Positions 4,921 to 33,802 of a stretch of DNA of 33,802 nucleotides are shown here, in pieces. Location of the stretch: positions 1-33,802 of the forward strand of contig JAJTYI010000001.1 of NCBI GenBank assembly GCA_021463645.1, given 5' to 3'. A model generated the notes under the pieces. That model saw only the letters and a program-made list of their open reading frames with translations, was not told where the DNA came from and made no database searches. The stretch is from a bacterium. Lineage in GTDB: Bacteria > Patescibacteriota > Dojkabacteria > B142 > OLB20. Made by a program: the position numbers and the translations under genes. Numbering within the stretch: position 1 is the stretch's first letter; each line of letters begins with the position of its first letter.

Positions 4921-6519
4921 TTATATCAACCCATACCCAATCATTTCCTCATTCAAATTCTGAATATAATCCCCTACCCACCTCGAATTCGATTGATTCA
5001 TGAGGATTTGTTGCTCGATGATTAGATTCTTATCCAATCCAGTATTTTGATTTAGTACGAGACAGTCGATATCTGCATTCCAGACTTTTCCATTCAAGAA
5101 GTTTCTTCCTTTAAAAGATTCGATGTTCTTCTTTAACACGTAATTATTCACAACTCCTCGAAAAACCGGAAATCCATAGCTAAGTGGACTTGTTGTGTCA
5201 ATTCCTGTTCTGACAAAATCGATATAGCCAACCAAGGGAGATAACTGTGAAATAGCACTTAGAAATACCGCGTCTTTCCCAACTGAAGATTTGATTACAT
5301 CTAATAATCCAGTTAATGCTTGTGCACGTGTGACGTTTTTGGAAAAATCAGTAGTGAAACCAAGGGGATAAACGAAGTCAATTTTAAAAACTCTGAAACC
5401 CCAGTCATAGTATTGTCTATACACTTGCCCTAAATAATTTTTCACTTCAGCGAGTGTGGGATCCAAAATCATCAAACTCAATGAATCAATAAAATCAAAA
5501 GGCTGAGTTTTCCTGCCTTCGAAACCTTGGAAAAACCAATTCTTATGGGTTTGATAAAGCTGACTATTAATAGTTGCAATTATTGGAGCTATCCAAATCC
5601 CTGCTTTAAAGCCTCTACTCCTAATTTCACTTGCAATATACTTCATCCCTTTAGGAAACTGGTTCTTATAATTTAACCAGTCACCAAATTCACAATAACC
5701 TGCATCAATGAGTATGGTATCTGTATTCACCAAATGTCCTGCATTCTTTTTCTCATCGATTTTGTACAAAGTGTTCATCACGTATTCTTCGTTGACTTTA
5801 TTTCCCTGTGCATAATAGGCACAGCAAATCCCGCTGATTTCTCTTACTACATTTTTTAGCTTCATTCGCTTTGACACTAACTTCGCGAATTGATTCTCTA
5901 AACAAGATTTTTTATCCCACATAAAGACGACTTTTTCGGTTTTCAATTTCTCCCCCACTGGTAACTCTACCTCATCAAATTGACAGACAACACACACCTT
6001 GATAAGTCCTCCATCATTTTTCAAATATATAACTGTGTACTGATCCGATGTTGTTAATGCTCCGACCATTAAATGGATTTTTTCAAAAGACACTCGAGAA
6101 AACCATTCTGAAATAAGTGAGCCTTTCAAATATCCATATTCTTCGAGAAATGAAAATGGATTTTGGTCTCTCATCATTATGTAATCGGACCTCTCTGTTT
6201 TTTTAATTTCTTTCAAGATTTTACAACTTCCACTTTGAGTCCATTCGTTGTACAAAACGTCCACAAAGCTCCCTAAAGTCTTGGGAAGTGTAAAATCGGC
6301 AATAACCACGGAGTTAATAAATTTAGTAGTCTTGGAGATATTTTTTAACTCAACTTCAACTTGATAAGAGTTCGAATAATCTTTCAATTTTGTGATTTTC
6401 CTTTTCAACTGAATATTTCTACCATTTCCATTTTGATAGAAATCGCTTGACCTATCTCTGAAGGATATTCCATATTTTGAAGATTTTAATCTTTTTCTTA
6501 AACGATGATTATTTAACAT
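4921..6519 (-). CDS. GH36-type alpha-galactosidase-like protein
   Basis: A 532-residue retaining glycosidase of the GH36 (melibiase) type, related to raffinose-synthase-like proteins. The N-terminal third (to about 225) is beta-rich, as in the family. The TIM barrel shows ILIDAGYCEFGDW (268-281), KGMKYIASEIRSRGFKAGIW (290-309), KIDFVYPLG with the probable nucleophile Asp381, and VRTGIDTTSP with the probable acid/base Asp441. Full GH36 enzymes are 650-750 residues, so this form is compact with a reduced C-terminal beta domain. There is no signal peptide, so it acts in the cytoplasm on an imported or internal galactoside, or has another alpha-sugar substrate. It follows on the minus strand from a 116-base divergent gap shared with the MgtE gene. 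Confidence 0.8.
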   Translation of the reverse strand: MLNNHRLRKRLKSSKYGISFRDRSSDFYQNGNGRNIQLKRKITKLKDYSNSYQVEVELKNISKTTKFINSVVIADFTLPKTLGSFVDVLYNEWTQSGSCKILKEIKKTERSDYIMMRDQNPFSFLEEYGYLKGSLISEWFSRVSFEKIHLMVGALTTSDQYTVIYLKNDGGLIKVCVVCQFDEVELPVGEKLKTEKVVFMWDKKSCLENQFAKLVSKRMKLKNVVREISGICCAYYAQGNKVNEEYVMNTLYKIDEKKNAGHLVNTDTILIDAGYCEFGDWLNYKNQFPKGMKYIASEIRSRGFKAGIWIAPIIATINSQLYQTHKNWFFQGFEGRKTQPFDFIDSLSLMILDPTLAEVKNYLGQVYRQYYDWGFRVFKIDFVYPLGFTTDFSKNVTRAQALTGLLDVIKSSVGKDAVFLSAISQLSPLVGYIDFVRTGIDTTSPLSYGFPVFRGVVNNYVLKKNIESFKGRNFLNGKVWNADIDCLVLNQNTGLDKNLIIEQQILMNQSNSRWVGDYIQNLNEEMIGYGLI

Positions 6520-8882: not shown

Positions 8883-9116
8883 ATGAATAAATGTAGACAT
8901 AATTTTGTCAATCCCCTTATAACCTATGGTGATCCACAAGAAAGAGTATCACCTCAACCAGTCATGATAGAAGGTGTCCTTCATGAACAAACACAAGTGG
9001 TTAAGGAATTCTTTGTAAGTGGACTTTGTTCTCTTTGTGGAAATTATATTGATCAAATGCCTGATGGTTTTATGGTTATTGAGGGTAGGACAACGTATCG
9101 ACCATTAGATCAGTAA
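8883..9116 (+). CDS. Small protein with possible zinc-binding Cys/His
   Basis: A 77-residue soluble protein. CRH near the N-terminus (Cys4, His6) and CSLCG (Cys49, Cys52) could together form a zinc-ribbon-like site; this is an inference from spacing. No family is recognised. It starts downstream of a perfect TATAAT and ends with a 7-base overlap into the convergent GH18 gene. It may be expressed alone. Real coding is supported by the promoter, the clean start and the paired cysteines, but a short frame of this size could be accidental. Confidence 0.55.
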   Translation: MNKCRHNFVNPLITYGDPQERVSPQPVMIEGVLHEQTQVVKEFFVSGLCSLCGNYIDQMPDGFMVIEGRTTYRPLDQ

Positions 9117-10342
9117 ATAGTCCCCTCATCCCCTAACCTCCAGAAAACAACACCTTTGAGGTTATATTCCTGTGCGAGGAGCATTCTTTCTTTCACTCCA
9201 TTGGGGCTGATATAAACTAGTGCTCGATTTTCGAGAACACCAGTCTTGTCATTTTTTCGAGTGTAGAAAAATACATTTTCACCTTCGAAAGCTGAAGCTT
9301 CCCCTTGATTTGACTGAAGTATGCTTAACACGTTTCTATAAGTATAAGCCCTAGCAGTGTTAGGATTAGAGCCTGAATTTTGTGAAGAATCTGTTTTGAG
9401 TTCAAGTTCTTCACCTGTGGTAGCATTTTGATACCATTCATAAGCATATAAATGTATCCCTAAAACTGTTTTCTGTGGGGGCATTTTCTGACTAGCATAT
9501 TCCAGCACTTCATTTATCCACCCAGTCGGACCGATTGGTCCTGGGTACTTGTCACCAGAATAAGTATAGTCGTAAGCCATAATTCTCACTTCATCCGCAT
9601 ATTTCGAGATCAAGGCCCAATCCTGTACTTGCCTAGTCTCTGGTCTATACGAATATCGAACATTGTCACCCCACTTGGCAAGTACTGTGACAATCAAAAT
9701 CTTATCGTTTCTGTGTAATTCCGAGGATAATTTGCTAAGAAAATCGTAATATAGATCCTTGTCAGCTAAACTCACAGATTCATAATCTAAATCAATCCCG
9801 TCATATCCATTAGTCACAACTGTCGATACTATTGAATCAACATGTCTTTGAATGTTCGTAGGAGATTGCAGCACTTGTGAGAATAAATTGTGATCAAACA
9901 TTCCTACTGTAGGCAAGATCCTAATATTCTTCGTTTTTGCATAATTTAATATCTGCGTTCGATTTGATGGATATTTCGTATTCAAACTTCCGTCAGACCT
10001 AACTTCGTACCATACAGGTGAAATTGTATCAAAATAGTTCGGATTTGCTGTTAATGAATTATATCCACTTTGTGATGCCCAAGTTGGCATCCATCCACCG
10101 ACATCAAGTTTATTTTTATCGAGAACTAATTCTGATTTAATGACTTCTTGTGTGACTACTACCTCTACTGTAGGAGTGACAGTGATTATTATTTCTTGTG
10201 ATTTTACTTGTGAAGAGTCATTATGCACTTGTGATTCAGAATCCAGTCTTAAGGTATACGCAAAGAAGCCAATGGTTAATAATAATAAAATCAGTATTAA
10301 TCCCACTAGAATTAGTTTTTTGTGCGATAATTTATTAATCAT
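9110..10342 (-). CDS. Membrane-anchored GH18 (YaaH-like) glycosidase
   Basis: A 410-residue protein from the ATG at 10342. A longer TTG start at 10432 is possible but would run 62 bases into the divergent kinase gene. Residues 9-31 form one hydrophobic segment (signal anchor), followed by a Thr/Val-rich linker and a GH18 TIM barrel. The catalytic motif DGIDLDYE holds Asp181, Asp184, Asp186 and the proton donor Glu188; barrel marks VGGWMPTW, EVRIMAYDYTYSG and VVFWRLGDEG are also present. Similar spore or envelope GH18 proteins hydrolyse beta-1,4-linked N-acetylglucosamine polymers, including peptidoglycan. It probably works outside the membrane on cell wall or chitin-like material; the exact substrate is inferred only. 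Confidence 0.88.
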   Translation of the reverse strand: MINKLSHKKLILVGLILILLLLTIGFFAYTLRLDSESQVHNDSSQVKSQEIIITVTPTVEVVVTQEVIKSELVLDKNKLDVGGWMPTWASQSGYNSLTANPNYFDTISPVWYEVRSDGSLNTKYPSNRTQILNYAKTKNIRILPTVGMFDHNLFSQVLQSPTNIQRHVDSIVSTVVTNGYDGIDLDYESVSLADKDLYYDFLSKLSSELHRNDKILIVTVLAKWGDNVRYSYRPETRQVQDWALISKYADEVRIMAYDYTYSGDKYPGPIGPTGWINEVLEYASQKMPPQKTVLGIHLYAYEWYQNATTGEELELKTDSSQNSGSNPNTARAYTYRNVLSILQSNQGEASAFEGENVFFYTRKNDKTGVLENRALVYISPNGVKERMLLAQEYNLKGVVFWRLGDEGTIY

Positions 10343-10370
10343 AATCCATTCTAACTGAAATATAGTAAGG

Positions 10371-10997
10371 ATGTTAACAAACGAAAAATTAAAACGGCAT
10401 TTATCAGATTTCCCTGTCAGACCAGATATCAAAGTTGATGTAATTTCCGGACCGACTGCGATTGGAAAACATACAATAGTAAATCAACTCAAAAAAACTC
10501 ATAAATTTCTAGTTCCAACTACTACTCGCCCCCCATTAAGAGACGAAGTTAACGGAATTAATTATTATTTTGTTAATAAAACTGATTTTGTGAGAGGTTT
10601 ACTAAACGGTAAGTTTGCAACAGGATTTATTTTAGAGAATCATTATTATGGTTTTTCCGTAGAAGAACTTGAAAAAGCAATTTCAAGTGAATACAAAACC
10701 ATAGCAATCATTTATTATAAAGTACTCGATCAGTTTATAGAAAAGTTTCCAAATTCATTTATACATTTTATGTTTCCACCCTTTACAAATAGTGGACTAG
10801 AGCTTATTAAAAGAAGGATGTTATCCAAAACAGCATGGAATTTTGAACAACGATGGAGAGACACATTAGAGCAAATGAATGCGATGTATGTGACAAAACC
10901 AACTTTACTTGAGAAATATCCGAAAAGTAGACTCTACAAAATCAAAGATGACAGAAGTACTTCGAAGCTTATCAAAGACTTGAAAAAATCCAAATAA
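10371..10997 (+). CDS. gmk: Guanylate kinase-like protein
   Basis: A 208-residue P-loop kinase resembling guanylate kinase, which phosphorylates GMP to GDP with ATP. The P-loop is ISGPTAIGKHTIV (Lys33), altered from the usual GPSGAGKGT. It is followed by VPTTTRPPLRDEVNGINYYFV (TTTR at 50-53), the typical GMP-binding segment, though the usual RxGE is RDEV here. An AAGG touches the ATG at 10371, too close for a normal ribosome binding site. The gene is divergent from GH18 and its stop abuts the stop of the convergent small membrane gene. Length is normal for the family. The sequence is divergent enough that another nucleotide or non-nucleotide substrate is possible. Confidence 0.75.
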   Translation: MLTNEKLKRHLSDFPVRPDIKVDVISGPTAIGKHTIVNQLKKTHKFLVPTTTRPPLRDEVNGINYYFVNKTDFVRGLLNGKFATGFILENHYYGFSVEELEKAISSEYKTIAIIYYKVLDQFIEKFPNSFIHFMFPPFTNSGLELIKRRMLSKTAWNFEQRWRDTLEQMNAMYVTKPTLLEKYPKSRLYKIKDDRSTSKLIKDLKKSK

Positions 10998-14745: not shown

Positions 14746-14817
14746 GGCCCCATCGTCTAACGGTTAGGACACCGGCTTTTCAAGCCGATAATCGGAGTTC
14801 GATTCTCCGTGGGGTCA
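14746..14817 (+). tRNA. tRNA-Glu (anticodon TTC)
   Basis: The 72-base gene has acceptor GGCCCCA/TGGGGTC (one G-T pair), discriminator A, anticodon loop TTTTCAA with anticodon TTC, and T arm CGGAG-TTCGATT-CTCCG. CCA is not encoded. Its last three bases are shared with the stop codon of the convergent glycosyltransferase gene. Confidence 0.95.
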
Positions 14818-15840
14818 TTTAAATCTAAACCTATAAAAAAAGTTCCCCAAAACCAAACACATAAAAGGATAAACTGGCAACACATACCACGCCAATTTAG
14901 TTTCAACAATCGTAAAAATTACCAATACAGTTACAATTGCTATCATTGAATATCTTACATATTGGATAGAAGATATTTTCCTATTAAATATGGCAAGAAT
15001 CAAAAGTGGCCAGAGTGGATTTACTCGGAAATCTAAGAAGACTTTCAAAATGTACCAGACTGGATGCCCATGACCTTCTATTCCCTCGTTCATTCTCTCT
15101 ATTATATGGTAATTCAGGTAAACATCAGTAAATTCAGAACCATGATTCATAAACATAAACAAATGCCATGGAAGAACAATTATCCCAAAAGCAATTAGCC
15201 CTAAGAATAGTTTGATCAATTCCTTTCTGCTGAATTTCCTTGACGACACAAAGAATAATGAATTAATTGCCAGGAAAATCATAACCAGCGGACCTTTTAC
15301 TAAGAACCCCAATCCAAGTAAGATACAACTTAAGATCCAATATTTTCTTTTCGTTTGTAACAATACAAATGACAAAAAAATTAGTAAAATTTGAAGACCA
15401 TCTAAGTCTGCACTTTTGTATGTGTGAGTACTAAAATAGTCACTAGGGTTTACCAGGATGTTATGCGGTATTAGTGGAAAACTTATTGCTGCAATGAACG
15501 CAGAGGTTTTATTAGTTCTTGTCTTTAGAAATTGATAGATAAGGGCAACAATCGCACTACCAGAAAGGGCACTTGGCAGTCGATAAACCCATATCTCATC
15601 ACCTAGCACATTTGTCAGGAATCTTGTCAGCCAATACCAAATTGGTGGTTTTTCAAAAAATTTTTCACTTTGAAAACTTAAATAAATTCCACTACTCTCT
15701 TGCACCACTTGTATATTGGTGTATTCATCCCATCTTTCGACATCCCTTTCTCCTAGATTAAGAATGAGTATCAATCCACAAAAAAGTAGAAGCAACAACA
15801 ATAGTTTATCTATACTTTTGAGTAAATTGAGGAATTTCAT
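14815..15840 (-). CDS. PMT/ArnT-type membrane glycosyltransferase
   Basis: A 341-residue polytopic membrane protein of the GT39/GT83 (PMT_2, ArnT-like) group, which moves a sugar from a polyprenyl-phosphate donor to lipids or proteins on the outer face of the membrane. After the first helix, the expected external acidic pair lies in ERWDEY (Asp38-Glu39), with SEKFFEKPPIWYWL (59-71), LPSALSG and GLGFLVKGPL, all typical. About nine hydrophobic helices follow. Known members reach 500 residues or more; here the C-terminal soluble domain is missing. The ATG at 15840 is chosen because the longer TTG start (15885) overlaps the upstream gene. It starts 5 bases after that gene's stop, so it is in the same operon. 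The TGA stop overlaps tRNA-Glu. Confidence 0.85.
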   Translation of the reverse strand: MKFLNLLKSIDKLLLLLLLFCGLILILNLGERDVERWDEYTNIQVVQESSGIYLSFQSEKFFEKPPIWYWLTRFLTNVLGDEIWVYRLPSALSGSAIVALIYQFLKTRTNKTSAFIAAISFPLIPHNILVNPSDYFSTHTYKSADLDGLQILLIFLSFVLLQTKRKYWILSCILLGLGFLVKGPLVMIFLAINSLFFVSSRKFSRKELIKLFLGLIAFGIIVLPWHLFMFMNHGSEFTDVYLNYHIIERMNEGIEGHGHPVWYILKVFLDFRVNPLWPLLILAIFNRKISSIQYVRYSMIAIVTVLVIFTIVETKLAWYVLPVYPFMCLVLGNFFYRFRFK

Positions 15841-15845
15841 AATTC

Positions 15846-17930
15846 TTAGTAAACCACAACACCAGAGTTGTTGAATACTGACCAAAGTGAATCAAATTGA
15901 GAGGTGCTTACGGTCCATACACCACGATTGGTGTCATGTAATATCACTTGTGTCGGATTTTCCATATCACCTTTCCAACCTGCCACAACGAAAGAGTGCA
16001 TTCCCGCAATCGCATAGATTGATTGACCACCTGGAGTTTTCCAGGAAATATTGGTGCCAACAGCCCCATTTGGAGATGAGCTATATCCGTTGTGAGCCCA
16101 AACTATGACTGGATTCCCTTTCGAGACTTCTGTTAGTAATGCAGTTCTATTCCAACCAGTTTTGACTGCAGTTGATCGATATTTGTTAATAAATGCGCTG
16201 ATTGGTGACCAATACACACCGTAACCCTTCGGATTTCCACTAATATCGCCAACAAAACCAGAATTAGGATTTCCCCAAATTCGATTACCATCACTTTCAC
16301 TATATGGAGTCGGATCTTTTGGGATAGAAGCATAAACTGATTCAGTGGAAAGTGAAACACCACGATAACCCAAAGCAATCCTAGTAGCATCAATATTGCA
16401 AGAAAAACTATTCTTCTGATAAATAACTGGTAAGTCTAGCTTGAAACTCTCTGGTTTTGTTGTGAATTTAAATGTTCTAGTCTGAACCGAGTCCACACCC
16501 CTGATTGATTTTATTCCCGGACTAATCGTAACGGTATAAGCTGTATTGTAAGATAAGTCTGCATTAGGATTGAATGTCATTGTATTTCCGTTCCAGGAAA
16601 ATGCACCTTCGACTGCAGGACTGACAGAGAATTTGCTCTGTGCAGAGGCTCTATCAGCCTCTTGGTTGAAACTGACACTAATGTTAGTTCCTAAGGAGAT
16701 GTTTGTCGCACCATTTCCAGGGGTGTTTCCAGAGACTACGAGTTTTCCAATTGTAGAAAACGAATTCTCTATCACTCTTTCTATTACCCCTCCTTTTACA
16801 CTTTTCAGACCTTTCTCCAGTTTTATCAAATATTTCGTCTCTTTGGCTAAACCGTTATGCTTGAATTGTAATGTCTTTGCATCAGGCCAGATGATTTCCC
16901 CAGCTACTGCTGGTTCTATTTTAAATAATTCTCCAACTGAATCTGGCAACATATCTTCTTCAAAGACAATTTTTATCTCAGTGTCACTGAACAAACCTTC
17001 TCCAGTAGGTGAGATAGTCTGCACAAGAGGCTCTTTTATTGTTTTGAATTTTCCTTTAAGAATTTCTTCGGGTTCTTTTCTTTCAATAATTTCATCTTTT
17101 TCGAGGTCATACCTAAGCAAAGTTCTATTAATTTGATATTGATATTCTTGTGTTTGAGCTAAGTTATTAACAAATTTAATAGTAAGGACATTATCATTTT
17201 GTTCAAGCTCATATTGAACCTCAGGAGTGAACTTTATCTCCCACTCTGTATATTTATCCAGAGGTCGATCAAAAGTAAGCTTGATTGGCTCAGATACAGC
17301 GACATCCGCAGCTTCATTCTCTGGGTCAATACTCTCTAATTTCTGTGAAGGAACTGTGAATGTATTCGTACTAAACTCCCATCCACCTGCTTTCATTGCG
17401 GTTGGATTTTTGATTCCAGCGTAATATATGAACAACTTAGTTTCATCAAAAAATGTTTCTTGCGGATAAAATGTAACTCGCCTTTTAAACATAGGTAACC
17501 AGTCATAAACGGGTTCGTTTTTCCATTCGCCCTTTATTTCAGGGAAAATATAAGGTTTCATATCACCTTCTTTGATTGGTCGGTCAAACAATACGCTTAC
17601 ATTTCCGTTATTCTGGTCATAGAGAACATCATCATCAGGATATTCACTTATTGGATAAGGACTTTTAGAGAGATCCTTATACAAAATTACTACGGAAGCA
17701 ATAAGTAGTATATTTAATGGTATTAAAGCAAATTTGTAGAACAAGTACCCTAATCTTTTAATTTTCAGCTTAATCAGTGAAGGTTTCTTTGAGTCATTTT
17801 CAGATGTTTTGAAAATATTGGGGTTTATAGTGTTTAGACTTTCCGCTTTTTTCAACCGTCTAGCTTTTCGTCTGCGCAGTAAAAAGATAATTATCCATAC
17901 GAAATTAGATAATAGCAAAACCACAACCAT
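15846..17930 (-). CDS. Membrane-anchored Big_5/Ig-like and C39-like peptidase protein
   Basis: A 694-residue envelope protein. Two hydrophobic stretches (about 2-18 and 66-84) flank a basic cytosolic piece. Outside, there are bacterial Ig-like (Big_5/SbsA) modules: about 195-270, 305-395 and 400-492, each with the pattern of sequence problems 'P.....v.....i.v.F...' and a closing 'F.t'. The C-terminus is a C39-like (Peptidase_C39_2) domain with Cys511 (NSFSCNIDA), His645 (AGMHSFVVAGW) and Asp666 (ILHDTN) as the probable triad. Such proteins can cleave peptides, process cell-wall proteins or bind them. The start ATG at 17930 has AGGA directly before it. It sits between the acyltransferase-deacetylase gene and the glycosyltransferase in the same direction. 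Confidence 0.82.
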   Translation of the reverse strand: MVVVLLLSNFVWIIIFLLRRRKARRLKKAESLNTINPNIFKTSENDSKKPSLIKLKIKRLGYLFYKFALIPLNILLIASVVILYKDLSKSPYPISEYPDDDVLYDQNNGNVSVLFDRPIKEGDMKPYIFPEIKGEWKNEPVYDWLPMFKRRVTFYPQETFFDETKLFIYYAGIKNPTAMKAGGWEFSTNTFTVPSQKLESIDPENEAADVAVSEPIKLTFDRPLDKYTEWEIKFTPEVQYELEQNDNVLTIKFVNNLAQTQEYQYQINRTLLRYDLEKDEIIERKEPEEILKGKFKTIKEPLVQTISPTGEGLFSDTEIKIVFEEDMLPDSVGELFKIEPAVAGEIIWPDAKTLQFKHNGLAKETKYLIKLEKGLKSVKGGVIERVIENSFSTIGKLVVSGNTPGNGATNISLGTNISVSFNQEADRASAQSKFSVSPAVEGAFSWNGNTMTFNPNADLSYNTAYTVTISPGIKSIRGVDSVQTRTFKFTTKPESFKLDLPVIYQKNSFSCNIDATRIALGYRGVSLSTESVYASIPKDPTPYSESDGNRIWGNPNSGFVGDISGNPKGYGVYWSPISAFINKYRSTAVKTGWNRTALLTEVSKGNPVIVWAHNGYSSSPNGAVGTNISWKTPGGQSIYAIAGMHSFVVAGWKGDMENPTQVILHDTNRGVWTVSTSQFDSLWSVFNNSGVVVY

Positions 17931-18102: not shown

Positions 18103-20997
18103 TTAATCGTCTTTGTCGATAGTACTCAGGGTATTCTCCAATGTAGAGTATATAACTGGACCGTTATCATTTTCATATTTCATTAGCTCAATATAATCAA
18201 AAATCCTTTCCATATCTGACTGATCTAATTTTGTAAACCAATGTGGATGGCTAAGATAGGTTACGACTTGAGATTGTTCAAGTGGTATAGATTTGTAATT
18301 ATCATCGAACTTATCTCTCAATATTTCGAAGTCCCTATTCGTGCTATCCATACCATTGTTAGGATATTCCCAAATGTTTAAAAATGGTTCTGCTGAGATA
18401 TTCTGATCCAATAGCGAAGGTTTGTAAGGTTGAGTCGTAGAACTCAGCGTCCATGGATTCTCGATTTTATTTGGACCGTAAATTATCGCTTCACGACCTG
18501 ATGAATCGATTTTAAAGTCTAAATCGGCTAATACTCGTAAATTTTCCTCGTCAATAAACCATCCACCTGCACGATAAGAAACAGGCTCCGGTAGTCCATT
18601 TACTGCATATTGCTCTAGTGACCATTCGATAATTTGTTTGAATTCATCATACTCATAAGCAGTAGTAAGTACATCATGACCATTTTCTCTTCCACCCCAC
18701 CTTGGCTCTGTTTTGGGCTCCAATCCAATCTTCGAAATCATATCTTGATGCATATGAAGGTGTAGAGCGATTTCGTCTCCTCTATTTTTCTGACCTAATT
18801 TAATCCACTCCACCATTCGAGTAATTCTTGCTGGACTTATCTCACTTGCAGCAAAGATTCTAGGATTGAAAAATGTCGTCATTGGCATGCCGTACTTAGC
18901 AGTTATTTCATCCATCACTCTTAAATTATCCTCGCTAACATCATATCCTTCCCAGTCCATCGTCCAAGTTACAAATAATGGATAGCTTACATTGAAAGTG
19001 AGTGTGTCACTTTCGTAATTTTTACCCTGAACAACAGTTTTTATAGAATATTTCCCCGGTTCAAGGTCTTCTGTCGGAAGTTGTAGTTCATAAATTTTTT
19101 CGTCAATTTTAGGTGGTCTGTATTTATTTTCAACGTCTTCAGGATCCGTAACAATAACCGAAACAATGTCATCAGTAATTACTTCGTTTGTCGTAAGCTG
19201 AATTTTATATAATACATTTTTATCATCAGGAGAGACTTTATCGTAATCTTTCAAATACCATGCTCTTGAAAGATTTGTGACAATTAAAGCACTATTTTCT
19301 TCACCTTGAGTGACTTTGAATTTGAGTGTTTTCAACAAAGGTTTGCTCAACTCCGTCGTGTCAGAATCAAGCTGTTTATTTCCATAATATAAGTAATAAT
19401 TCCCGACTGATGCTTCTGGAGCTAGATTCTCATTTAATTGAAAATATATCTTAGTAGTTGAAGTATTGATTTCTTCTAGAAACACAGCCTGTTCCCGATA
19501 ATCACCTTCACCTAGATAAACGATAGCTAAATCATCTCCATTTATCGAGCTTTTTTGTTTTTGCACCAATTCACTATGATCAACTTGGAGGACAACCCAG
19601 CTGTCTTTGGGTAATAAATGTTCACTATCGGTATTCTTAATCGTTAACTCGGAATTGTATTTATAATCTTTATTCCACCAGATGATTTCCTCTTCTTTTT
19701 CAGGTGCAACATAACCTTTTACCACTCCCTCTTCGACTGATGATAATTTTGTATCATCGGAAACATTTACCCTTGTATAAACAATGAAAGCAAGCGCGAA
19801 TACTAAAAGAAGAGCAATTGTTCTATATGCGTATTTAATCATTATTTCTAATCTCTGGCTAATTATACCATTTATCCTTGATTCAAGTTGTAGCTTGGGC
19901 AATATGAAAAATCTCTTCATTGTATAAACTAAAACGCTAACTACTAAAGTCAAAGTACAAAATCCAAGAAAAACCAGAATCACATTTCCTGTTTTAGTAC
20001 CAATGAAAGTTTTATACGACTCCAAAAGAAGTATGTGTAAAACATAGAAATCCAGTGGGTTTTTCCCGATAAACTCAATAATTGATGTTTTAGATTGTTT
20101 ATTGTTAATAAATAGATTGAAAAATTTATTAATAATAATGACAAGCTGAACAAAAACTAAGCCTATTATCAGGAAGCTAACAGAAGGAGGCCATCTTTGT
20201 AGGAAAATGTAACCTTCTCCAACAACTGGTTGCCAAGTTTTTGTTACTGCAAAAAATAGTGTTAATAAACTGATAAATAGAAGCTGTAGAATCCAGCTGA
20301 TTTTGAATTTAGATTTTCCACCCATTAACTCAGAACCAAATTTCATCCCAAATAAATATATGGGGAAATATTGAAAAACTGGGAATTGATAACCCTGTTC
20401 GTGCCCAACAAATAAAGATTTGTAATGATTGAGATCAACACCTAGGTCTATTTGATATAGCAACATTCCGAGGATATATGCATTTATTCCGAACAAAATA
20501 ACTACGAAAGAATTCTTTATGATTAGCTTATAGACTCTACCGAAGAATACAAGTGACAAACTTAATATTAAAAATGCTATTAGGAATTCTGTATATGTTG
20601 GAATTAATTTGAAAATTAAAATATTGGGTACAATTTCTATTAAAATATCCAAATTTAGTGCTTTCTGGTCTAGTAAGCTAAGTAATATGGCTACAGAATA
20701 ATAAATCAGTAGAAATTGAAAGGTTTTTATTAGTATGTGTAATTTTTTCTTCTGCCAAAGGTCAGATTCGCTAGCAAGGTCAACATTAGCAATGTAGTTA
20801 GACGCTCCAGAAACATAGATAAATGTTGTGAAGGCAACTGTCGCAGTAAACCAGCGTGTGAAATCCACACTAAGTGAATTCCCGTTATAGAAGAAATCAA
20901 TACTATGGGAGACAAACATTAGAAGTACTGCCAAGCCTCTAACTTTATCGATTATTGGGAATCTTTTTTTACTTGTTATTATTACGTGTTTTGACAT
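18103..20997 (-). CDS. Fusion: membrane acyltransferase, DUF2341-like, polysaccharide deacetylase
   Basis: A 964-residue protein from ATG 20997 (a TTG at 21051 would add 18 residues). Numbering here is from that TTG. Residues 31-385 form a membrane acyltransferase of the OpgC/heparan-glucosaminide N-acetyltransferase type: RFPIIDKVRGLAVLLMFVSH, then about ten helices. A further helix (409-426) leads to a DUF2341-like beta module (458-560, WWNKDYKYNSEL to NYYLYYGN) and a second beta domain (575-690). The C-terminus (693-982) is a NodB/CE4-like deacetylase with Asp699 (TWTMDWEG), HLHMHQD (764-770), YRAGGW (826-831) and SHPHW (934-938). Acyl transfer and deacetylation would thus act on the same polymer from one chain. 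It heads a minus-strand envelope cluster. Confidence 0.83.
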   Translation of the reverse strand: MSKHVIITSKKRFPIIDKVRGLAVLLMFVSHSIDFFYNGNSLSVDFTRWFTATVAFTTFIYVSGASNYIANVDLASESDLWQKKKLHILIKTFQFLLIYYSVAILLSLLDQKALNLDILIEIVPNILIFKLIPTYTEFLIAFLILSLSLVFFGRVYKLIIKNSFVVILFGINAYILGMLLYQIDLGVDLNHYKSLFVGHEQGYQFPVFQYFPIYLFGMKFGSELMGGKSKFKISWILQLLFISLLTLFFAVTKTWQPVVGEGYIFLQRWPPSVSFLIIGLVFVQLVIIINKFFNLFINNKQSKTSIIEFIGKNPLDFYVLHILLLESYKTFIGTKTGNVILVFLGFCTLTLVVSVLVYTMKRFFILPKLQLESRINGIISQRLEIMIKYAYRTIALLLVFALAFIVYTRVNVSDDTKLSSVEEGVVKGYVAPEKEEEIIWWNKDYKYNSELTIKNTDSEHLLPKDSWVVLQVDHSELVQKQKSSINGDDLAIVYLGEGDYREQAVFLEEINTSTTKIYFQLNENLAPEASVGNYYLYYGNKQLDSDTTELSKPLLKTLKFKVTQGEENSALIVTNLSRAWYLKDYDKVSPDDKNVLYKIQLTTNEVITDDIVSVIVTDPEDVENKYRPPKIDEKIYELQLPTEDLEPGKYSIKTVVQGKNYESDTLTFNVSYPLFVTWTMDWEGYDVSEDNLRVMDEITAKYGMPMTTFFNPRIFAASEISPARITRMVEWIKLGQKNRGDEIALHLHMHQDMISKIGLEPKTEPRWGGRENGHDVLTTAYEYDEFKQIIEWSLEQYAVNGLPEPVSYRAGGWFIDEENLRVLADLDFKIDSSGREAIIYGPNKIENPWTLSSTTQPYKPSLLDQNISAEPFLNIWEYPNNGMDSTNRDFEILRDKFDDNYKSIPLEQSQVVTYLSHPHWFTKLDQSDMERIFDYIELMKYENDNGPVIYSTLENTLSTIDKDD

Positions 20998-21381
20998 TAT
21001 TATATTTAGTATATGGGACGGAAAAATTCGTGTAAAGTTAAGAGTTTTCAACTTAAAGACGAATTTACATTAAGCAGGTCTGGTTATATAAGTTATAACC
21101 TTGAGTCAACTTCAAAGCAAAGGTAAAATTAAATAATTTAAGGAAGACAATTATTGCAGAGCAAAAACACTTCGTTAAGTCGAATACACAACAAATACAT
21201 CGTATTTCCTGATTATCTCCTCTACTGGAACTTCACAAAAGTGTTCTGATGGTTCCACTGTTTCGATAATTTATTAATAAAGCTGAATTTCTGGTGATTA
21301 CTTAAATAGATATTTTTCAAATCAACTTTCTGTTCTGATACCAATCTATATCTATACTCTTACCTTTAGAAGTTATTATAA
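20998..21381. other. Intergenic region upstream of the fusion gene
   Basis: About 380 bases without a convincing gene. It includes the palindrome at 21082-21100 with a promoter-like pattern, and AT-rich sequence otherwise. On the minus strand it would be the promoter and leader of the fusion gene. Only very short frames (about 20 codons) occur. Confidence 0.5.
21082..21109 (-). promoter_or_regulatory. Promoter-like site overlapping a perfect palindrome
   Basis: GGTTATA-TAAGT-TATAACC (21082-21100) is a perfect 7-bp inverted repeat with a 5-base spacer. On the minus strand TTGACT (21109-21104) lies directly upstream, and TATAAC (21088-21083), inside the palindrome, follows after 15 bases. A dimeric repressor bound here would cover the -10. 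The spacer is short, so the promoter call is tentative. Confidence 0.4.
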
Positions 21382-22698
21382 TTATCTTAATGAGGGAAAT
21401 GTGGGAAATGAGGGAAATGTGGGAAGTATGTGGATGTTTGCACCGACGATATCCCTTCTATAAGTTTCAATATATCTTTTCATAATTTCACTAAATCTCT
21501 CGTTTTCTTCAGCTCCACCCTCAAGTGTTGTTGCACGAATATCCTCTTGAATTTGTAACAATTCATTTCTTTCATCAGCATCGACATCCAATCGCTTTCT
21601 ATCACCTTGCGATATCACATTGGCAATTATGCCACGTTGATTTTCGGGAATACTTGCTTCGGGAAGATTAGCTGTAATCTTTAGCAATTTGTTTACCATC
21701 AGCTCGTTCTTTTCTGTATCATAAATTGAATCTATGTAGTAAATACCATCCTTCAATACAACCATTTCCCTTGAAAGATATTGAGTAGTATCATTTATTA
21801 AAATATTGTCATCATAGATTTTACATCTCCCCGTATCAGCTAATATAACTTCAACCAAGGGTCTAGTTTCACTTGTAGTCAATGCAGATTTAGGTCTTTG
21901 TTTATTCCATCTATCCATATTGTGTGTAAAGTCATCAATCAATGCTTCGTCCTGACTTTTCTTGATTTTCCCATGTAACTTACCAAAAATTGCATATTCG
22001 GTACTCAACATTAGTTTTACCATCTGAGGAGGATACTTATTCAACAAATACAGAATCCAGTATTGATGATAGAATTCTCCCATCCTATTATTTATGTCTT
22101 TGTCTGGATCCTGCGATGAACCATCTGGAAAGGGAAGACTAGGACTAATAGGTACAAACACATCCGAAAAATATCTAGCCTCAAGTAATTTATCACCTAT
22201 TTTAATCAAACTCCTCCTCCTTTGCTTTTCTCTTAGTTCAGAATGAAAAAATAGCATTGTGTCCCTTAATGCTGAAGTTATATTTCCATCATGTACTTCC
22301 AACATAAATCCAAAAAGGTCCGAATGATTTAATTTGGCCCCCTTAATACGCTGTTTATCCTCCAGCCAATTATGAATTAATGCGATAGGGTTTGCAATAT
22401 TATCGTGCTGGATAACATTGTATACATCACTCCCCCTATCAATTCCAGTCTGTAATCCTTCTTCAAGCACCGTATTAGACCTCTCTCTGTTATATTTTCC
22501 TGCATACGCATCTAATATGGTTGAAATATTTCCAGGGTAAGTAGATACTCCTTCCAAATTAGTCGCTCCTTGTTTAGCAAAAATCGCAGACTTTCCATTC
22601 CTACTTTCGTATTGATCAATTTGGTCGATTACATCCTTAAATATTGAGTTTGTGCGGATATTCATTTCAGGACTTTCAGGGTTTCTATCAACACTCAT
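21382..22698 (-). CDS. Hypothetical soluble protein with FPS/FPT repeat tail
   Basis: A 438-residue protein I do not recognise. It has no signal peptide or membrane segment. It is polar, mostly helical in look in the first 260 residues (GEFYHQYWILYLLNKYPPQMV) with a beta-rich stretch at about 275-335 (LADTGRCKIYDDNILI, VVLKDGIYYIDSIYD). The end is LPTFPSFPTFPSLR, encoded by four 9-base tandem repeats. It is divergent from the YdeI-like gene and ends 381 bases before the fusion-gene start. Like the unknown protein at 3523-4881 it is about 440 residues and charged, but no similarity is evident. Function unknown. Confidence 0.72.
   Translation of the reverse strand: MSVDRNPESPEMNIRTNSIFKDVIDQIDQYESRNGKSAIFAKQGATNLEGVSTYPGNISTILDAYAGKYNRERSNTVLEEGLQTGIDRGSDVYNVIQHDNIANPIALIHNWLEDKQRIKGAKLNHSDLFGFMLEVHDGNITSALRDTMLFFHSELREKQRRRSLIKIGDKLLEARYFSDVFVPISPSLPFPDGSSQDPDKDINNRMGEFYHQYWILYLLNKYPPQMVKLMLSTEYAIFGKLHGKIKKSQDEALIDDFTHNMDRWNKQRPKSALTTSETRPLVEVILADTGRCKIYDDNILINDTTQYLSREMVVLKDGIYYIDSIYDTEKNELMVNKLLKITANLPEASIPENQRGIIANVISQGDRKRLDVDADERNELLQIQEDIRATTLEGGAEENERFSEIMKRYIETYRRDIVGANIHILPTFPSFPTFPSLR
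21392..21427. repeat. Four 9-bp tandem repeats at a gene 3' end
   Basis: Units GAGGGAAAT, GTGGGAAAT, GAGGGAAAT and GTGGGAAGT, i.e. an 18-bp unit twice. They encode, on the minus strand, the Phe-Pro-Ser/Phe-Pro-Thr tail of the unknown protein. Copy number could vary by slippage without frame change. Confidence 0.8.
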
Positions 22699-27898: not shown

Positions 27899-30800
27899 AT
27901 GAAATCGATTGGTATTCGTAAAATTCGCATAATACTTTTGTTAGTGCTAGGATTGGCATTCCTATTGATTGGCTCCATCGTTATATCAGTTTTAGATAAA
28001 GACGATAATGTTCCTCAAGACAACTCCACAGGACAAGAATTTAATATAAAAGATCTTCCCCCAAACGAACCAAAAACTCTCGACACCGATACCAGAAAAG
28101 TAAGTCCTAGTGTAAATCCAAAAGTTGGAGAACCTGTTGAGGAAAATGAAGATAAACTTCGAGAGATCTCAAAGGAAGCTCAAGAAGCTTATGAAAGAGA
28201 TACGAATATGAATGTTAAAGGTGCTAATACTGATGATGCTTTAGTACAAAAAGTATTTGTTGTTATTTGGGATTCAACACGCATGTCCCCAAACTCGGAT
28301 TATCCCGTATCAGATGACCCCGCAAAACTATCAACCTTACTAAAGGAGAAGATGGAGGAAGCTTCTATCGAACAAGGATATTCGGAATCTGGAAATAACT
28401 TTAAAAATGCGGAATTTCAAATTACCGATGTTGTCAGATATTTTGGTGTGACCCCTAAGAAGCCCGGAACCCCTCCTATTGATAGCCCTAATGGAGATGC
28501 CCACAGCGGGTCCTTTGACTATAACGCTTTGGTAGATATGCACAATCTTTGTCAAAAAGTGAATAATAACGAGATTGATGAGGTGTGGGTATGGGCTGAT
28601 AGAACAGGAGGTTTTTGGGAATCAATTATGATGGGACCTTCAAATCAAGTGTATTATATCAACGGTGACCCAATTGTCAGAAATGATTGCCAAAGAGCTT
28701 TATATGTGATGGGGTTTAATTATGAAGTATGGGTTGACCAAGCTATGCATAGTTATGGCCATAGATCTGAAGACACTTTGTCTTTCTTCCTTGATGGTGT
28801 TTATAGTAATGCTATTTATCCTGGAAGTACATCTTTTGAATACATGGGGATAAATTATGATTCAAATTACACTGACAACAAAAACTATATCGGAAATATG
28901 CATTGGCCTCATAATGCAATCAAACGCGATGATAGCACTGAATATGATTATAACAATACAACAAGCAAAATCACTGATTTTAGAGATTGGAATCCTCAAC
29001 ATACAGGAGAAAAAAGTAACTTGAATTGTAATCAATGGGGTTGTACCCCTCATGGTTTTTATACACAGTGGTTTCAAAATCTGCCAGGAAGATGCACCAG
29101 TTCGAAGTTAACTCAATTAAATGGAAATCCCATGATAAATATGTGGTGGGCAATATTAAAGAATTCATTTTATATTGAATCCGATGGATGTGATGTAGAA
29201 CCAACAACACCACCTAGTCCTTCGCAACCACCAGCAGCTCCTCCCGTTGATTCTCCGGAAAGTGGAGAATGTCAACCGATGCTCGAATATTGTGATCCTC
29301 CAGGAGCGAATTTACTTGACGATGTGTACTTTAATCAGTCGAATGATGGTAGTTTCGAAAACCCCATTTGTACACTTAATCCAGATGGTTCGTATGGAGG
29401 GAAAGGTTGCGATGCCGTAAACCAGCAACATACATATTATCAAGCAGATCGTTCAGCATTACTTCCAATCAACTCAATGGCTTTCTTTACGAGTGGTGAA
29501 GGATACGACAAACCTGAGTATATAGTGCAAGAAGTTGCAGGAAATCAACAATGCGAAGAAGGTTTGACAGCTCATGGTAACAACTCGTATAAGATTTTTT
29601 CTAGACAAGGTTTAGCTCTGAAAGGCGGACTTTGTCTACCTATGAAACCGCACGGTAATCCTACGCATTCGGGCATCAACTTCAGAGTATCTCAAGCAAC
29701 TAGAGATATTGCTGACAATGTAGAAGTGACATTTAGACTTGGCTACATTACAACACCTCTTTCCAACAACTTCTATTTCGATAGTACACCTTCTCTTCAG
29801 GAATCAGCGATTACATGGGTTACAACTAGAAGAGTAGGACAAAGTGAATACGGACAAGAAGAAGGTTTTGCATCAAGATACGCTGGTGGATTCTTAGAGT
29901 CAACAATGCCAGGAAATGCAACTGGCTTCTGTTTTATGGCAGAAAGTGTCGGAGGGCAAGGTATCAATACATTCTGGGATGCAGCTTTCGCAAGTATTGA
30001 TTCAAATTCATGCGATATAGCCACCGAACACAAAGATGGAATCGATCGATCCTGTGGGGGCTATGCTTGTGGAAACGTTGACCCCACTCTTTCGGGCAAT
30101 GGATATGTCGACTTCAATCAAGAATATTATGCATTTGATATGCCAACTCACTGGAGAGCTACACAATGTCATTATGAAACCGAAACAAATGGAGCAGATT
30201 CTGAATATGGGGCTTTATTCGCAGGACTGGACTTAAATAATTGTGATCCAAATTACTGGGACCCAGCACAAAGAAATCTTCATCCCGAGATGGACAAACC
30301 AGACGTGGCTTGTGCAGACTCGAGGAATTGGATTTATGGGTATGCATGGACTGGAGGTGTGAAAGACTTTGGTCTACTTCAATACTTAGATTGCGCATTA
30401 ACCTCTCTTGATGGTAACGAAATTGATCCAGAACTTAGAAATGCGTTTAAAGGAACTTCCAACAATCCATACTTTTGTGACCAGATATTAAAGTCTTACG
30501 CGAATTCTATTGACGTTCCTCTCGACGTGGATCCTGCATTTGAAATACGTTACAGCAATACCTATTCAGGATTAGTAAATGCAATACAAGCAGAAACGAG
30601 AAGCAATTTCTGGAAAGTGCCACTACTTGGAAGTGCCGTAGGTTCTGGAGTGATTAACAACAAATATCCTGAAGAACATTATATCGATCCATTTTTAATT
30701 AGTAAGAGAAATTCTGGCTCAGGACTAAATAATTTTTCGAAATTCAATCTAGAAGATCAAGCTATTGCAATTATTGTAAAAGACGAAGATCATGAATTTA

Positions 30801-33800
30801 CAGATTCTATAATCCCACAAAACGAAGTACTAATGGAAGATCTATTGGCTCGTGGACCTGTATGTGAAGAAATTGTCGGAGACCCAATCACTAAGATACA
30901 TTATGGTCCTGAAGAAGGACTTTCTGATAGGGCAATCTTTGGTTTTGCAGACGATGAAGGAAGTTTCGAACACATTATTGAAGAAGAAAACCACGATATA
31001 ACAACAAGACAACTTTGTGATTATCAATTCCATGAAGGTCGAGTGGTAGGAGCTGATTGTACAATTGATGGGATAACATTTAATGAGGGAAATATAGGTG
31101 CTACCCTACATGGCGCCGGACTTATGGATTACCTTTCCGTTCCCACCCTACCACCTCCATCACCCACCGGAATACCAGTTGAAGGTTTTGATACCTGTCC
31201 CGATCAGAGTTTCTGTGGAGAAGATTTTGATTGTGAAGATTCAATGTTAGCACTCTATGAACATTGTAAAATGACGGTTGATGAATTCAGTATAGGGATT
31301 GGTGGAAATCCATTTATCAGGCAAGAACTACCCAACGGTTGGAGAGATCTTCAAGTGTTCGGACTGAACAAAGTAATGGATTCCATGTGGCACAATGAAT
31401 TTTTACAATATAACTACCCTATCCGCCATGAAAATGTTGGAATTGATGTTAACCAAGTTGTGAGTATGTATGACCAACAGCAACCAAAATGCAGCATCAT
31501 GCCTGAGAGTAGAAAACCTGTTTATTGTAGTGATGACGCAGATCCAGCGACTGCATCAGTCATTGACAAGGCTCAACAAGTTTGCAGACGTGTTCCACCT
31601 TATAACTGCAATTGTAGTGCTTCAAACTTCACAACTTGTTTGATTGATTGCAAAGCGAACTTTACTCCTCCTCCACCATTGGAAGACATAGGACTACCTA
31701 TCGAAGGTGATATAGTACCAACTCGTCCACCAGGACCAAATGTTACACAACCTCCCGATACAGCAATTCGCCCAATATTGGATAATACTCACGAATCGTT
31801 CTTAGAGAGGTTTGTAAGACTTTTAGACCCAAAGACATATCCAGGTGAAGGTGGAAGAGAATATGAGGAAGGGCAAATTTATAACTATGATCCACGATAT
31901 ACAGGAGGATTCCTACTCGCTAATACTGGAGGTGAAGCAACACAATGTACTGTCCAAACAGGTCCTAGAGCTGCAGAGAGTGTCTCTCAAGTTAGAATCG
32001 AGAACTACTTTGCGTATGCCGGACAACTTGCCAGAATGAATGAAAGAATAGGATTTGCCGCAACAAATAATAAAGATCCTAGATCTTTTAAGGGAGAAAT
32101 TATTGATATCGAGAATGCTTCAGTTGCAGAGCTTATTTCATATTTCGTAGTTAGAGGAGAAGGGCTTGAAAATGTCGCTATACCTTACTGTGATTCTTTG
32201 ACAGACACAGAAAAAGCTGATTGTATGACATCAACCGATCAAAGTTGTGATTGTATGATAAGAAGTTGCCAACAACAATACGATACAAAATTATCAAATA
32301 TGGACGAATATCTGCCATTAATCTGTGAAAAGTTAACAAATATCCCTGAGAATGACTATCATCAAAGACCAATATCGGAATGTATTACAAATTTATCAAC
32401 TCATTGGGTAAATAATATTTTTATACCCGCAAAAGAAAGGTGTGATGCAACACCAAAAACGAATCTCAATTTCAATTGCGATCCAATGGCAAATTACTTG
32501 ATTGACCAAGGTTTTGATACTGCAGAACTAAGACTCGCGGCATGCGATCGCATACTTAACGATCAACAATGCGATTATGAAAAATTTGGAGTACATTTGA
32601 TAACCGGACCAATTCAACCAGAAAACTATACAAGAGCGGAAACATTAGGTTTGGGATGGAAAATGGAGGTGATAGTCGATGATTCAGATAATATGGTTAC
32701 TTCGATGGCTGACGCTGTGAATTCGTTTAGTGGTAAGACAGTGTTTAGATTCTGTAATGCAGATCAAGGAGAAGCAGGGTCGAAAATACAAGATCAAAGT
32801 TGTCAATTTAGAACAGAACTTACTGGGTCTCCTGCAGAGTCAGGAAGAAAAGCAGCCAACATGATACTCAGGGTTGCAGAGAGAACGAGTAAAGCATTTC
32901 TAGTCGCACCTATAAACGAGCCAGTGTCGGAACATTGGTTCGGAGGTGATTTGAATGACGATTCAAATCCAACGACAATGCAAGCTGCATCAGAATTCTA
33001 TACTGCATTTGCTGAAGTTCTCAATGCGAATCAGGCTTTAAGAAACAAAATTGAAATTGGTGGACCTACTTATAATGTCACCGCATTCGGGAATTACAGT
33101 AACTTTGAAAAATTCCATTCTGAATTTACTGCCAAAGCATTGGTAGATTACTGGACTGTTAATATTTATAATCACGATGATTTACCTCCTGCAATAAACA
33201 AAATCGAAGTCCAATTCGAACATGTAAAAAGTGTCTTCAATGATTCAAAACTCATAGGAATTAACGAAACAGGTGATTTCCAACACAACATATTGAGACT
33301 GAGAGATAGTCTCGCCATTATAGGACCTGATCCAAGATTAAAATACGCACTGTTATTTAATGCCTTTGGTGGATGGGGTGATACGAGAGGAGAACCATTA
33401 ATATTGAATGATGTGGAAATCCGAAATATCCTATCTGATAATGGTGTTTGTGAAGATACTGAAGAACCTATTTGTTATGAGGATCCTACAGGTGGTGGTG
33501 GAAACTTAGTTGCAAACCCACTTCCATTTGCTCGCAATTTCGTAGAAGTTTATGACCAACTACATGCTCCAAATTCTGCCGGAGGTAGAACTTGTGCTGA
33601 TTTGCCTCCTGGCCCAGGGGAGTATTATGAACCAAATGATGTAGGAATGGCTTGCGAAGGATATGAAACTAGGAAAGCTCTCCCAGAGTATGAATTCTAC
33701 AGAGGAGCATTAAGAAGATGCGGAATCCCTGTATCACAGACGGGGTGGACATCTCAGAACACATATAATATTGACGATTTAGGTGAACTGAAAGAAGAGA

Positions 33801-33802
33801 TA
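27899..33802 (+). CDS. Giant Cys-rich anchored protein with GH-like domain, partial
   Basis: One frame from ATG 27899 runs 1968 codons to the window edge with no stop, so the C-terminus is missing. Residues 11-32 form a single hydrophobic signal anchor after a basic start. Then: a charged linker (33-100); a first domain (about 105-435) with EIDEVWVWADRTGGFWES and the conserved-looking HSYGHRSED (284-292); a Pro-rich linker (about 438-455); a Cys-rich region (460-1080); two more Pro-rich linkers (about 1081-1095 and 1256-1295); a Cys-rich domain (1300-1560); and a TIM-barrel-like domain (about 1565-1860) with APINEPVSEHW (Asn1673-Glu1674-Pro1675) and LIGINETGDF (Glu1790), the acid/base and nucleophile pattern of clan GH-A. 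Many paired Cys suggest disulfides outside the cell. A surface hydrolase or adhesin is likely. No named family is certain. Confidence 0.85.
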   Translation, partial: MKSIGIRKIRIILLLVLGLAFLLIGSIVISVLDKDDNVPQDNSTGQEFNIKDLPPNEPKTLDTDTRKVSPSVNPKVGEPVEENEDKLREISKEAQEAYERDTNMNVKGANTDDALVQKVFVVIWDSTRMSPNSDYPVSDDPAKLSTLLKEKMEEASIEQGYSESGNNFKNAEFQITDVVRYFGVTPKKPGTPPIDSPNGDAHSGSFDYNALVDMHNLCQKVNNNEIDEVWVWADRTGGFWESIMMGPSNQVYYINGDPIVRNDCQRALYVMGFNYEVWVDQAMHSYGHRSEDTLSFFLDGVYSNAIYPGSTSFEYMGINYDSNYTDNKNYIGNMHWPHNAIKRDDSTEYDYNNTTSKITDFRDWNPQHTGEKSNLNCNQWGCTPHGFYTQWFQNLPGRCTSSKLTQLNGNPMINMWWAILKNSFYIESDGCDVEPTTPPSPSQPPAAPPVDSPESGECQPMLEYCDPPGANLLDDVYFNQSNDGSFENPICTLNPDGSYGGKGCDAVNQQHTYYQADRSALLPINSMAFFTSGEGYDKPEYIVQEVAGNQQCEEGLTAHGNNSYKIFSRQGLALKGGLCLPMKPHGNPTHSGINFRVSQATRDIADNVEVTFRLGYITTPLSNNFYFDSTPSLQESAITWVTTRRVGQSEYGQEEGFASRYAGGFLESTMPGNATGFCFMAESVGGQGINTFWDAAFASIDSNSCDIATEHKDGIDRSCGGYACGNVDPTLSGNGYVDFNQEYYAFDMPTHWRATQCHYETETNGADSEYGALFAGLDLNNCDPNYWDPAQRNLHPEMDKPDVACADSRNWIYGYAWTGGVKDFGLLQYLDCALTSLDGNEIDPELRNAFKGTSNNPYFCDQILKSYANSIDVPLDVDPAFEIRYSNTYSGLVNAIQAETRSNFWKVPLLGSAVGSGVINNKYPEEHYIDPFLISKRNSGSGLNNFSKFNLEDQAIAIIVKDEDHEFTDSIIPQNEVLMEDLLARGPVCEEIVGDPITKIHYGPEEGLSDRAIFGFADDEGSFEHIIEEENHDITTRQLCDYQFHEGRVVGADCTIDGITFNEGNIGATLHGAGLMDYLSVPTLPPPSPTGIPVEGFDTCPDQSFCGEDFDCEDSMLALYEHCKMTVDEFSIGIGGNPFIRQELPNGWRDLQVFGLNKVMDSMWHNEFLQYNYPIRHENVGIDVNQVVSMYDQQQPKCSIMPESRKPVYCSDDADPATASVIDKAQQVCRRVPPYNCNCSASNFTTCLIDCKANFTPPPPLEDIGLPIEGDIVPTRPPGPNVTQPPDTAIRPILDNTHESFLERFVRLLDPKTYPGEGGREYEEGQIYNYDPRYTGGFLLANTGGEATQCTVQTGPRAAESVSQVRIENYFAYAGQLARMNERIGFAATNNKDPRSFKGEIIDIENASVAELISYFVVRGEGLENVAIPYCDSLTDTEKADCMTSTDQSCDCMIRSCQQQYDTKLSNMDEYLPLICEKLTNIPENDYHQRPISECITNLSTHWVNNIFIPAKERCDATPKTNLNFNCDPMANYLIDQGFDTAELRLAACDRILNDQQCDYEKFGVHLITGPIQPENYTRAETLGLGWKMEVIVDDSDNMVTSMADAVNSFSGKTVFRFCNADQGEAGSKIQDQSCQFRTELTGSPAESGRKAANMILRVAERTSKAFLVAPINEPVSEHWFGGDLNDDSNPTTMQAASEFYTAFAEVLNANQALRNKIEIGGPTYNVTAFGNYSNFEKFHSEFTAKALVDYWTVNIYNHDDLPPAINKIEVQFEHVKSVFNDSKLIGINETGDFQHNILRLRDSLAIIGPDPRLKYALLFNAFGGWGDTRGEPLILNDVEIRNILSDNGVCEDTEEPICYEDPTGGGGNLVANPLPFARNFVEVYDQLHAPNSAGGRTCADLPPGPGEYYEPNDVGMACEGYETRKALPEYEFYRGALRRCGIPVSQTGWTSQNTYNIDDLGELKEEI

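Follow-up and report, generated by a model that had tools for sequence, protein, structure and literature searches.

An apparent cell-surface modification unit of Patescibacteria: a membrane acyltransferase fused to a CE4-like domain and linked to a C39-like peptidase

A single gene of a Dojkabacteria genome joins a predicted membrane acyltransferase of the AT3 type to a C-terminal CE4-like barrel, and in Patescibacteria genomes the same two parts recur beside a gene for a C39-like cysteine peptidase. Together, the fused gene and its linked peptidase appear to form a genuine unit for modifying the cell surface, one not described before and with a predicted chemistry. The gene lies within the 33,802 nucleotides analyzed here (hereafter, the window), which are the start of a 113.6-kb contig (JAJTYI010000001.1) in a 1.2-Mb genome with a completeness estimate of 88% (GCA_021463645.1). 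The closest named homologue of the fused protein also comes from a WS6/Dojkabacteria bacterium.

We found no report of an AT3 and CE4-like fusion in the open-access literature. In a review and two structural papers on AT3 proteins (PMC9558356, PMC9833829, PMC12423673), the fusions described carry SGNH, alanine racemase, or NRF domains, and the word 'deacetylase' is absent from these three papers, which is weak evidence of novelty. The recurrent pairing is a natural case in which to test what partner domains do for AT3 proteins. It also suggests that the reduced, mostly uncultured Patescibacteria modify their surface in a way not yet described. The cell surface is the interface through which many of these bacteria are thought to contact their hosts.

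Results

An intact fused gene

18103-20997, minus strand: fused gene of 964 aa, comprising AT3 acyltransferase, transmembrane helix 11, beta modules, and CE4-like domain (ORF translation; full length kept in other genomes)

Translation gives a single uninterrupted frame from an ATG at 20997 to a TAA at 18105-18103. An alternative TTG start at 21051 would add 18 aa; the N-termini of homologues fall near the ATG. Pfam matches to both an acyltransferase and a deacetylase-fold family lie in this one polypeptide, as the original prediction had proposed. An assembly or frame artefact, or chance, was ruled out, as stop-free full-length fusions occur in many independent genomes. The fusion is not unique to this contig, a doubt that the prediction had raised against itself: genome scans recover it across other lineages.

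The N-terminal acyltransferase domain

19873-20964, minus strand: AT3/TmAT acyltransferase domain, residues about 12-375 (PF01757, AF2 model, Foldseek)
20905-20940, minus strand: R20-x10-H31 motif, an AT3 hallmark (R in 26/29 homologues, K in 3; H in 29/29)

Sequence comparison assigns residues 12-375 to the TmAT superfamily of acyltransferases, with AT3 as the best-fitting family and with a predicted activity. The isolated domain matches PF01757 (Acyl_transf_3; E 6.8e-13, 48.8 bits against a cut-off of 31), as do all 29 of the 29 homologous N-terminal domains. Its match to HGSNAT_cat (PF07786; E 8.5e-6, 25.9-27.8 bits against a cut-off of 22) is weaker and is shared by 19 of the 29, and a Pfam scan of the whole protein lists HGSNAT_cat alone for the N-terminal part. 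OpgC_C (PF10129) is matched by 10/29 homologous domains and, at E<=0.1, not by the fused protein of the window. The domain had been described as of OpgC/HGSNAT type; the OpgC label is not supported, HGSNAT_cat scores above its cut-off but ranks second, and PF01757 is the best Pfam assignment.

The R-x10-H motif is defined for AT3 proteins in TMH1 (PMC9833829). Position 91 is basic (R/K) in 28/29 homologues, and a clear RxxR of TMH3 is absent from the window protein. D17 and an F59-x4-G64 motif are present, corresponding to a residue and a motif named for the TmAT superfamily (PMC12423673). When the AF2 model of the domain (pLDDT 85, pTM 0.85) was compared with the PDB by Foldseek, the best ten matches were nine human HGSNAT cryo-EM structures and one entry titled 'membrane proteins'. 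These ten matches all have a probability of 1.00 and E-values of 1e-3 to 5e-3, and the next match has 0.14; for this predicted model, the E-values are modest and the separation from the next match is clear. The fused protein is the sole PF01757 match found in its source genome (88% complete).

Topology and middle modules

19750-19818, minus strand: 11th hydrophobic helix, about residues 394-416 (hydropathy peak 385-414)
18988-19725, minus strand: beta-rich modules, residues 425-670 (AF2 model; first half without a Pfam family)

The C-terminal half, which follows helix 11, is predicted to lie outside the cytoplasm because the topology parallels that of AT3-SGNH proteins, in which the esterase fold is required for transfer (PMC9558356). 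The layout is indeed the same, with 10 transmembrane helices, an 11th, a linker, and an outside domain of esterase fold, and it would also suit a single acyltransferase in which the CE4-like domain stands where OafB/OatA have their SGNH domain and carries out or directs the last step, acyl transfer to the glycan. The altered metal motifs described below could likewise mean a changed reaction. We nevertheless consider this reading unlikely: CE4-type mechanisms are hydrolytic and proceed without a covalent acyl-enzyme, which would make a transfer role unusual, and homologues consisting of the C domain only exist without AT3 or peptidase. The mechanism of NDST1 agrees, with deacetylation that involves no covalent acyl-enzyme (PMC10864358).

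A DUF2341-like module had been proposed between the two domains and is not borne out, as Pfam gives no match for residues 425-565 at E<=1, DUF2341 included. A domain search of the three segments, which the original prediction had suggested, thus recovered the acyltransferase and the DUF2334 CE4-like part and left the middle segment without a Pfam family. At the level of sequence the middle module seems dispensable, because shorter fused relatives have no detectable copy. A similar module precedes the LamG domains of a 2560-aa LamG protein encoded in the same genome (contig 9; L062:420-8102).

The C-terminal CE4-like domain

18106-18984, minus strand: CE4-like (DUF2334, PF10096) barrel, residues 672-964 (Pfam, AF2, Foldseek)
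18949-18957, minus strand: D681-W-E683 at the CE4 motif 1 position (D in 47/48, E or D in 48/48; end of model strand 250-257)
18748-18762, minus strand: H746-L-H748-M-H750 at the CE4 motif 2 position (H746 and H748 in 48/48)
18559-18573, minus strand: R809-A-G-G-W813 at the motif 3 position (R and G811 in 48/48, W in 45/48; MT3 Pro absent)
18505-18507, minus strand: D831 at the motif 4 position (47/48; loop stretch in the model)
18247-18249, minus strand: H917 at the motif 5 position, candidate catalytic acid (47/48; after model strand 486-492)

As modeled by AF2 (residues 425-964, pLDDT 92.9, pTM 0.86), the C-terminal domain has the NodB barrel fold. The match to PF10096 has an E-value of 1e-6 to 3e-7 (29-30.6 bits against a cut-off of 26); PF01522 (NodB, CE4) gave no match to the window protein at E<=0.1, and 5 of 42 members match it. 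The best PDB neighbours in Foldseek are HP0310 (3qbu; E 4e-9, TM by target 0.61), 3rxz (0.63), and ArnD (8t0j; 0.56), with a CE4 xylanase domain (Xyl-CE4, 7ax7; TM by target 0.65) lower in the list. The query was multi-domain, and its many other matches, which are multi-domain glycosidases with high rmsd, were given zero weight. Aligned by hhalign with Patescibacteria CE4 sequences, the domain matches weakly and in the motif 3-4 region only, and the CE4 relation therefore rests mainly on structure. In a PDB sequence search, the C-domain profile matched 3rxz (E 0.005), plus one kinase at chance level.

Residue conservation was counted across 48 C-domain homologues from several phyla, using published CE4 motif definitions (PMC10967932). 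The tandem Asp (DD) of motif 1 is replaced family-wide by D-x-E/D, with the E/D two residues after D681. At motif 2 the family constant is H-x-H (48/48); the window's HLHMH formally contains HxxxH, but position 750, that of the usual second His (+4), is His in 14/48 and F, Y, W, Q, or N in 34/48. Six of the seven conserved sites (D681, E683, H746, H748, R809, H917) sit at or beside strand ends in the AF2 model. Because near-invariant residues lie at or next to these modeled strand ends, the domain likely has a candidate active site, perhaps with a re-arranged metal site. The original description of a CE4-like domain with Asp and His-rich motifs agrees with the fold and with the retained Asp, Arg, Asp, and His. 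Across the family the metal-ligand pattern departs from the canonical DD and HxxxH, and the domain is best left outside CE4. PuuE (3CL6), which has Trp in place of the second motif 2 His, is metal-independent (PMC10967932). Judged from its sequence, the domain may be no deacylase at all.

Another reading makes the barrel non-catalytic: it would bind the glycan and position the acceptor for the AT3 domain. The family-wide variation in canonical metal ligands would fit this. Near-invariance of Asp, Arg, Asp, His, and H-x-H in the 48 cross-phyla homologues would be unusual for a lectin-like role, and we regard this as improbable, the least probable of the readings weighed here.

Distribution of fused and separate forms

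Searching 97 relatives with the fused protein (E<=0.001) gave matches in 30; some of these cover only one part or only the middle module. Of 380 genomes sampled evenly from the phylum, 33 match, several through weak middle-module-only matches, and the share that carries the unit is therefore well below a tenth. An alignment query run against named genomes yielded 67 loci, 31 of which have both A (acyltransferase) and C (CE4-like); by mechanical ORF calling, these comprise 21 fused loci and 10 with neighbouring separate genes. A survey of genomes for the same order had been suggested at the outset, and it shows the fusion conserved in other lineages. Both parts occur in Dojkabacteria/WS6, CPR2, CPR3, Doudnabacteria, Wirthbacteria, Berkelbacteria, WWE3, Microgenomates, Magasanikbacteria, and further Patescibacteria. 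The 31 loci are not independent samples, as related genomes share history; given that they span at least nine Patescibacteria lineages, coincidence is very unlikely.

Where the two are separate genes, C usually follows A across a small gap or with a small overlap. A few of these loci resemble broken fusions (L090; L120, with C in pieces). One additional fused copy (L084) is cut by a contig start. The C-domain tree requires at least three changes between fused and split states. That A stands beside C even when split, and that such changes have occurred at least three times, indicates that both parts serve one process. Outside the Patescibacteria (Chloroflexi, Myxococcota, and others), six-frame profile searches of C-domain loci found neither A nor peptidase nearby, and the viral contigs scanned gave no match. 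Two copies are apparently split or broken, L033:7893-10487 (G003, with in-frame stops) and L120:7983-10955 (G021, a complete genome), and these sequences suggest occasional loss of the fused gene.

A linked C39-like peptidase and other neighbours

15846-17930, minus strand: partner gene encoding N-terminal transmembrane helices, three Big_5 domains, and a C39-like cysteine peptidase (Pfam; downstream of the fused gene)
14815-15885, minus strand: PMT_2/GT-C-type glycosyltransferase with a weak ArnT-like match (Pfam; a minority of loci have a homologue close to the unit)

The partner gene, which the original prediction did not mention, matches PF13529 (E 3e-18) and has a solved relative in 3erv; its peptidase residues Q505, C511, H645, and D666 are each kept in 31/31. 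A gene of this transmembrane/Big_5/C39-like architecture adjoins 30 of the 31 A+C loci, and the exception (L075) stops at a contig edge. It is usually the next gene, often separated by a few bases or overlapping. In one locus (L067) it lies on the opposite strand, and the peptidase and the unit are therefore not always one transcript. Among called C loci lacking A, the peptidase is present in the cut copy L084 only and absent in 22. The reverse search of the 97 relatives agrees: peptidase matches that are strong and cover the full length (E 1e-57 or better) adjoin A-C or C genes, and below that level the scores drop to partial C39 or Big_5 matches.

Other flanking genes are mostly mixed and uninformative. 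The NCBIfam match of the PMT_2 gene to ArnT is far below cut-off, and the NCBIfam scan gave nothing above cut-off; a further PMT_2 gene is among the neighbours in L068. The neighbours annotated in the window include no GT2 synthase.

A proposed dual enzyme

From this observed architecture, conservation, and linkage, we favor, at about even chances and ahead of each of the alternatives discussed, a dual enzyme that is anchored in the membrane, has two predicted active sites, and would control how an extracytoplasmic glycan is acylated; both reactions, the donor, the substrate, and the topology are what we infer. As in the AT3 and HGSNAT families, the ten-helix domain would accept an acyl group from acyl-CoA in the cytosol and make it available at the outer face of the membrane. 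The tethered CE4-like domain, assisted by the adjoining beta modules, would then hydrolyse an acyl group, probably N-acetyl, on the same glycan, as its fold and conserved Asp, Arg, Asp, and His suggest. As a net effect, the glycan would lose an acyl group at one position and gain one there or elsewhere. Against this dual reading, glycosyltransferase and other neighbours vary among loci, and the C domain departs family-wide from the canonical metal-ligand motifs.

Opposite reactions in one protein are not paradoxical, because there are precedents: IcaB deacetylates PNAG, which IcaC is proposed to O-succinylate (PMC9558356), and NDST1 joins N-deacetylation to N-sulfation (PMC10864358). The linked C39-like peptidase and the GT-C glycosyltransferase, which is linked in some loci, point to a surface glycoprotein or an anchored polymer as the substrate. 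A narrower form of the proposal, which we put forward tentatively and hold to be well short of even chances, is a Patescibacteria-specific N-acyl exchange enzyme, coupling acyl transfer across the membrane to glycan deacylation, whose metal site is altered (D-x-E, H-x-H) and which works with a dedicated surface cysteine peptidase.

The same dual activity could instead be directed at peptidoglycan, a special case that we keep apart by its substrate. The AT3 domain would O-acetylate and the CE4-like domain N-deacetylate the wall, and the C39-like protein would be a wall-bound endopeptidase. These two modifications of peptidoglycan are otherwise made by separate proteins, OatA and PgdA. The best solved fold neighbour of the C domain, H. 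pylori HP0310, is a putative peptidoglycan deacetylase, and the Big_5 domains of the partner match the Ig domains of L,D-transpeptidase 2. Yet 24 of the 30 relatives searched carry separate PF01522 deacetylase genes, the PMT_2 glycosyltransferase is a poor fit as a neighbour, and the unit is patchy in the phylum; we find this version quite unlikely, more so than the single transferase considered above.

Relation to known systems

The favored dual enzyme shares features with several described systems and is identical to none of those compared. Like the AT3-SGNH proteins OafB, OatA, and PglI, it combines AT3 with an 11th transmembrane helix carrying an extracytoplasmic domain of esterase fold; here, however, that domain is a C-terminal CE4-like DUF2334 barrel rather than SGNH, and a C39-like peptidase is linked. 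In the icaADBC operon for PNAG, a deacetylase and an AT3 protein are likewise proposed to act on one glycan, but IcaB and IcaC are separate proteins and IcaB is a canonical CE4 enzyme. NDST1 unites a metal-dependent deacetylase barrel and a group-transfer enzyme in one polypeptide; unlike the protein described here, it is eukaryotic, transfers sulfate, and has canonical D/HxxxH ligands. The HGSNAT/TmAT superfamily shares the membrane-domain fold and acyl-CoA transfer across the membrane (predicted here), whereas the fused protein is closer in sequence to PF01757 and HGSNAT is without a deacetylase domain. ArnD, HP0310, and other CE4-like deacylases have the barrel fold and the catalytic Asp/Arg/Asp/His positions of CE4; in the present family the ligand motifs are altered throughout, and extra beta modules and a fused membrane enzyme are added. 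Finally, the OCL5 outer-core locus of Acinetobacter baumannii (pda2a, atrOC1) places a polysaccharide deacetylase and an Acyl_transf_3 protein in one glycan locus, but as separate genes of a lipooligosaccharide cluster and with a different deacetylase family (PMC4172580).

Other genes of the window

Upstream of the fused gene is an ORF of 438 aa (21382-22698, minus strand) with no Pfam match, and a frame of at least 1968 aa (27899-33802, plus strand) runs off the window end and matches no Pfam family at E<=0.001. Two further minus-strand genes are possibly glycan-active, encoding a GH18-like protein (9110-10432) and a melibiase/GH31-like protein (4921-6519).
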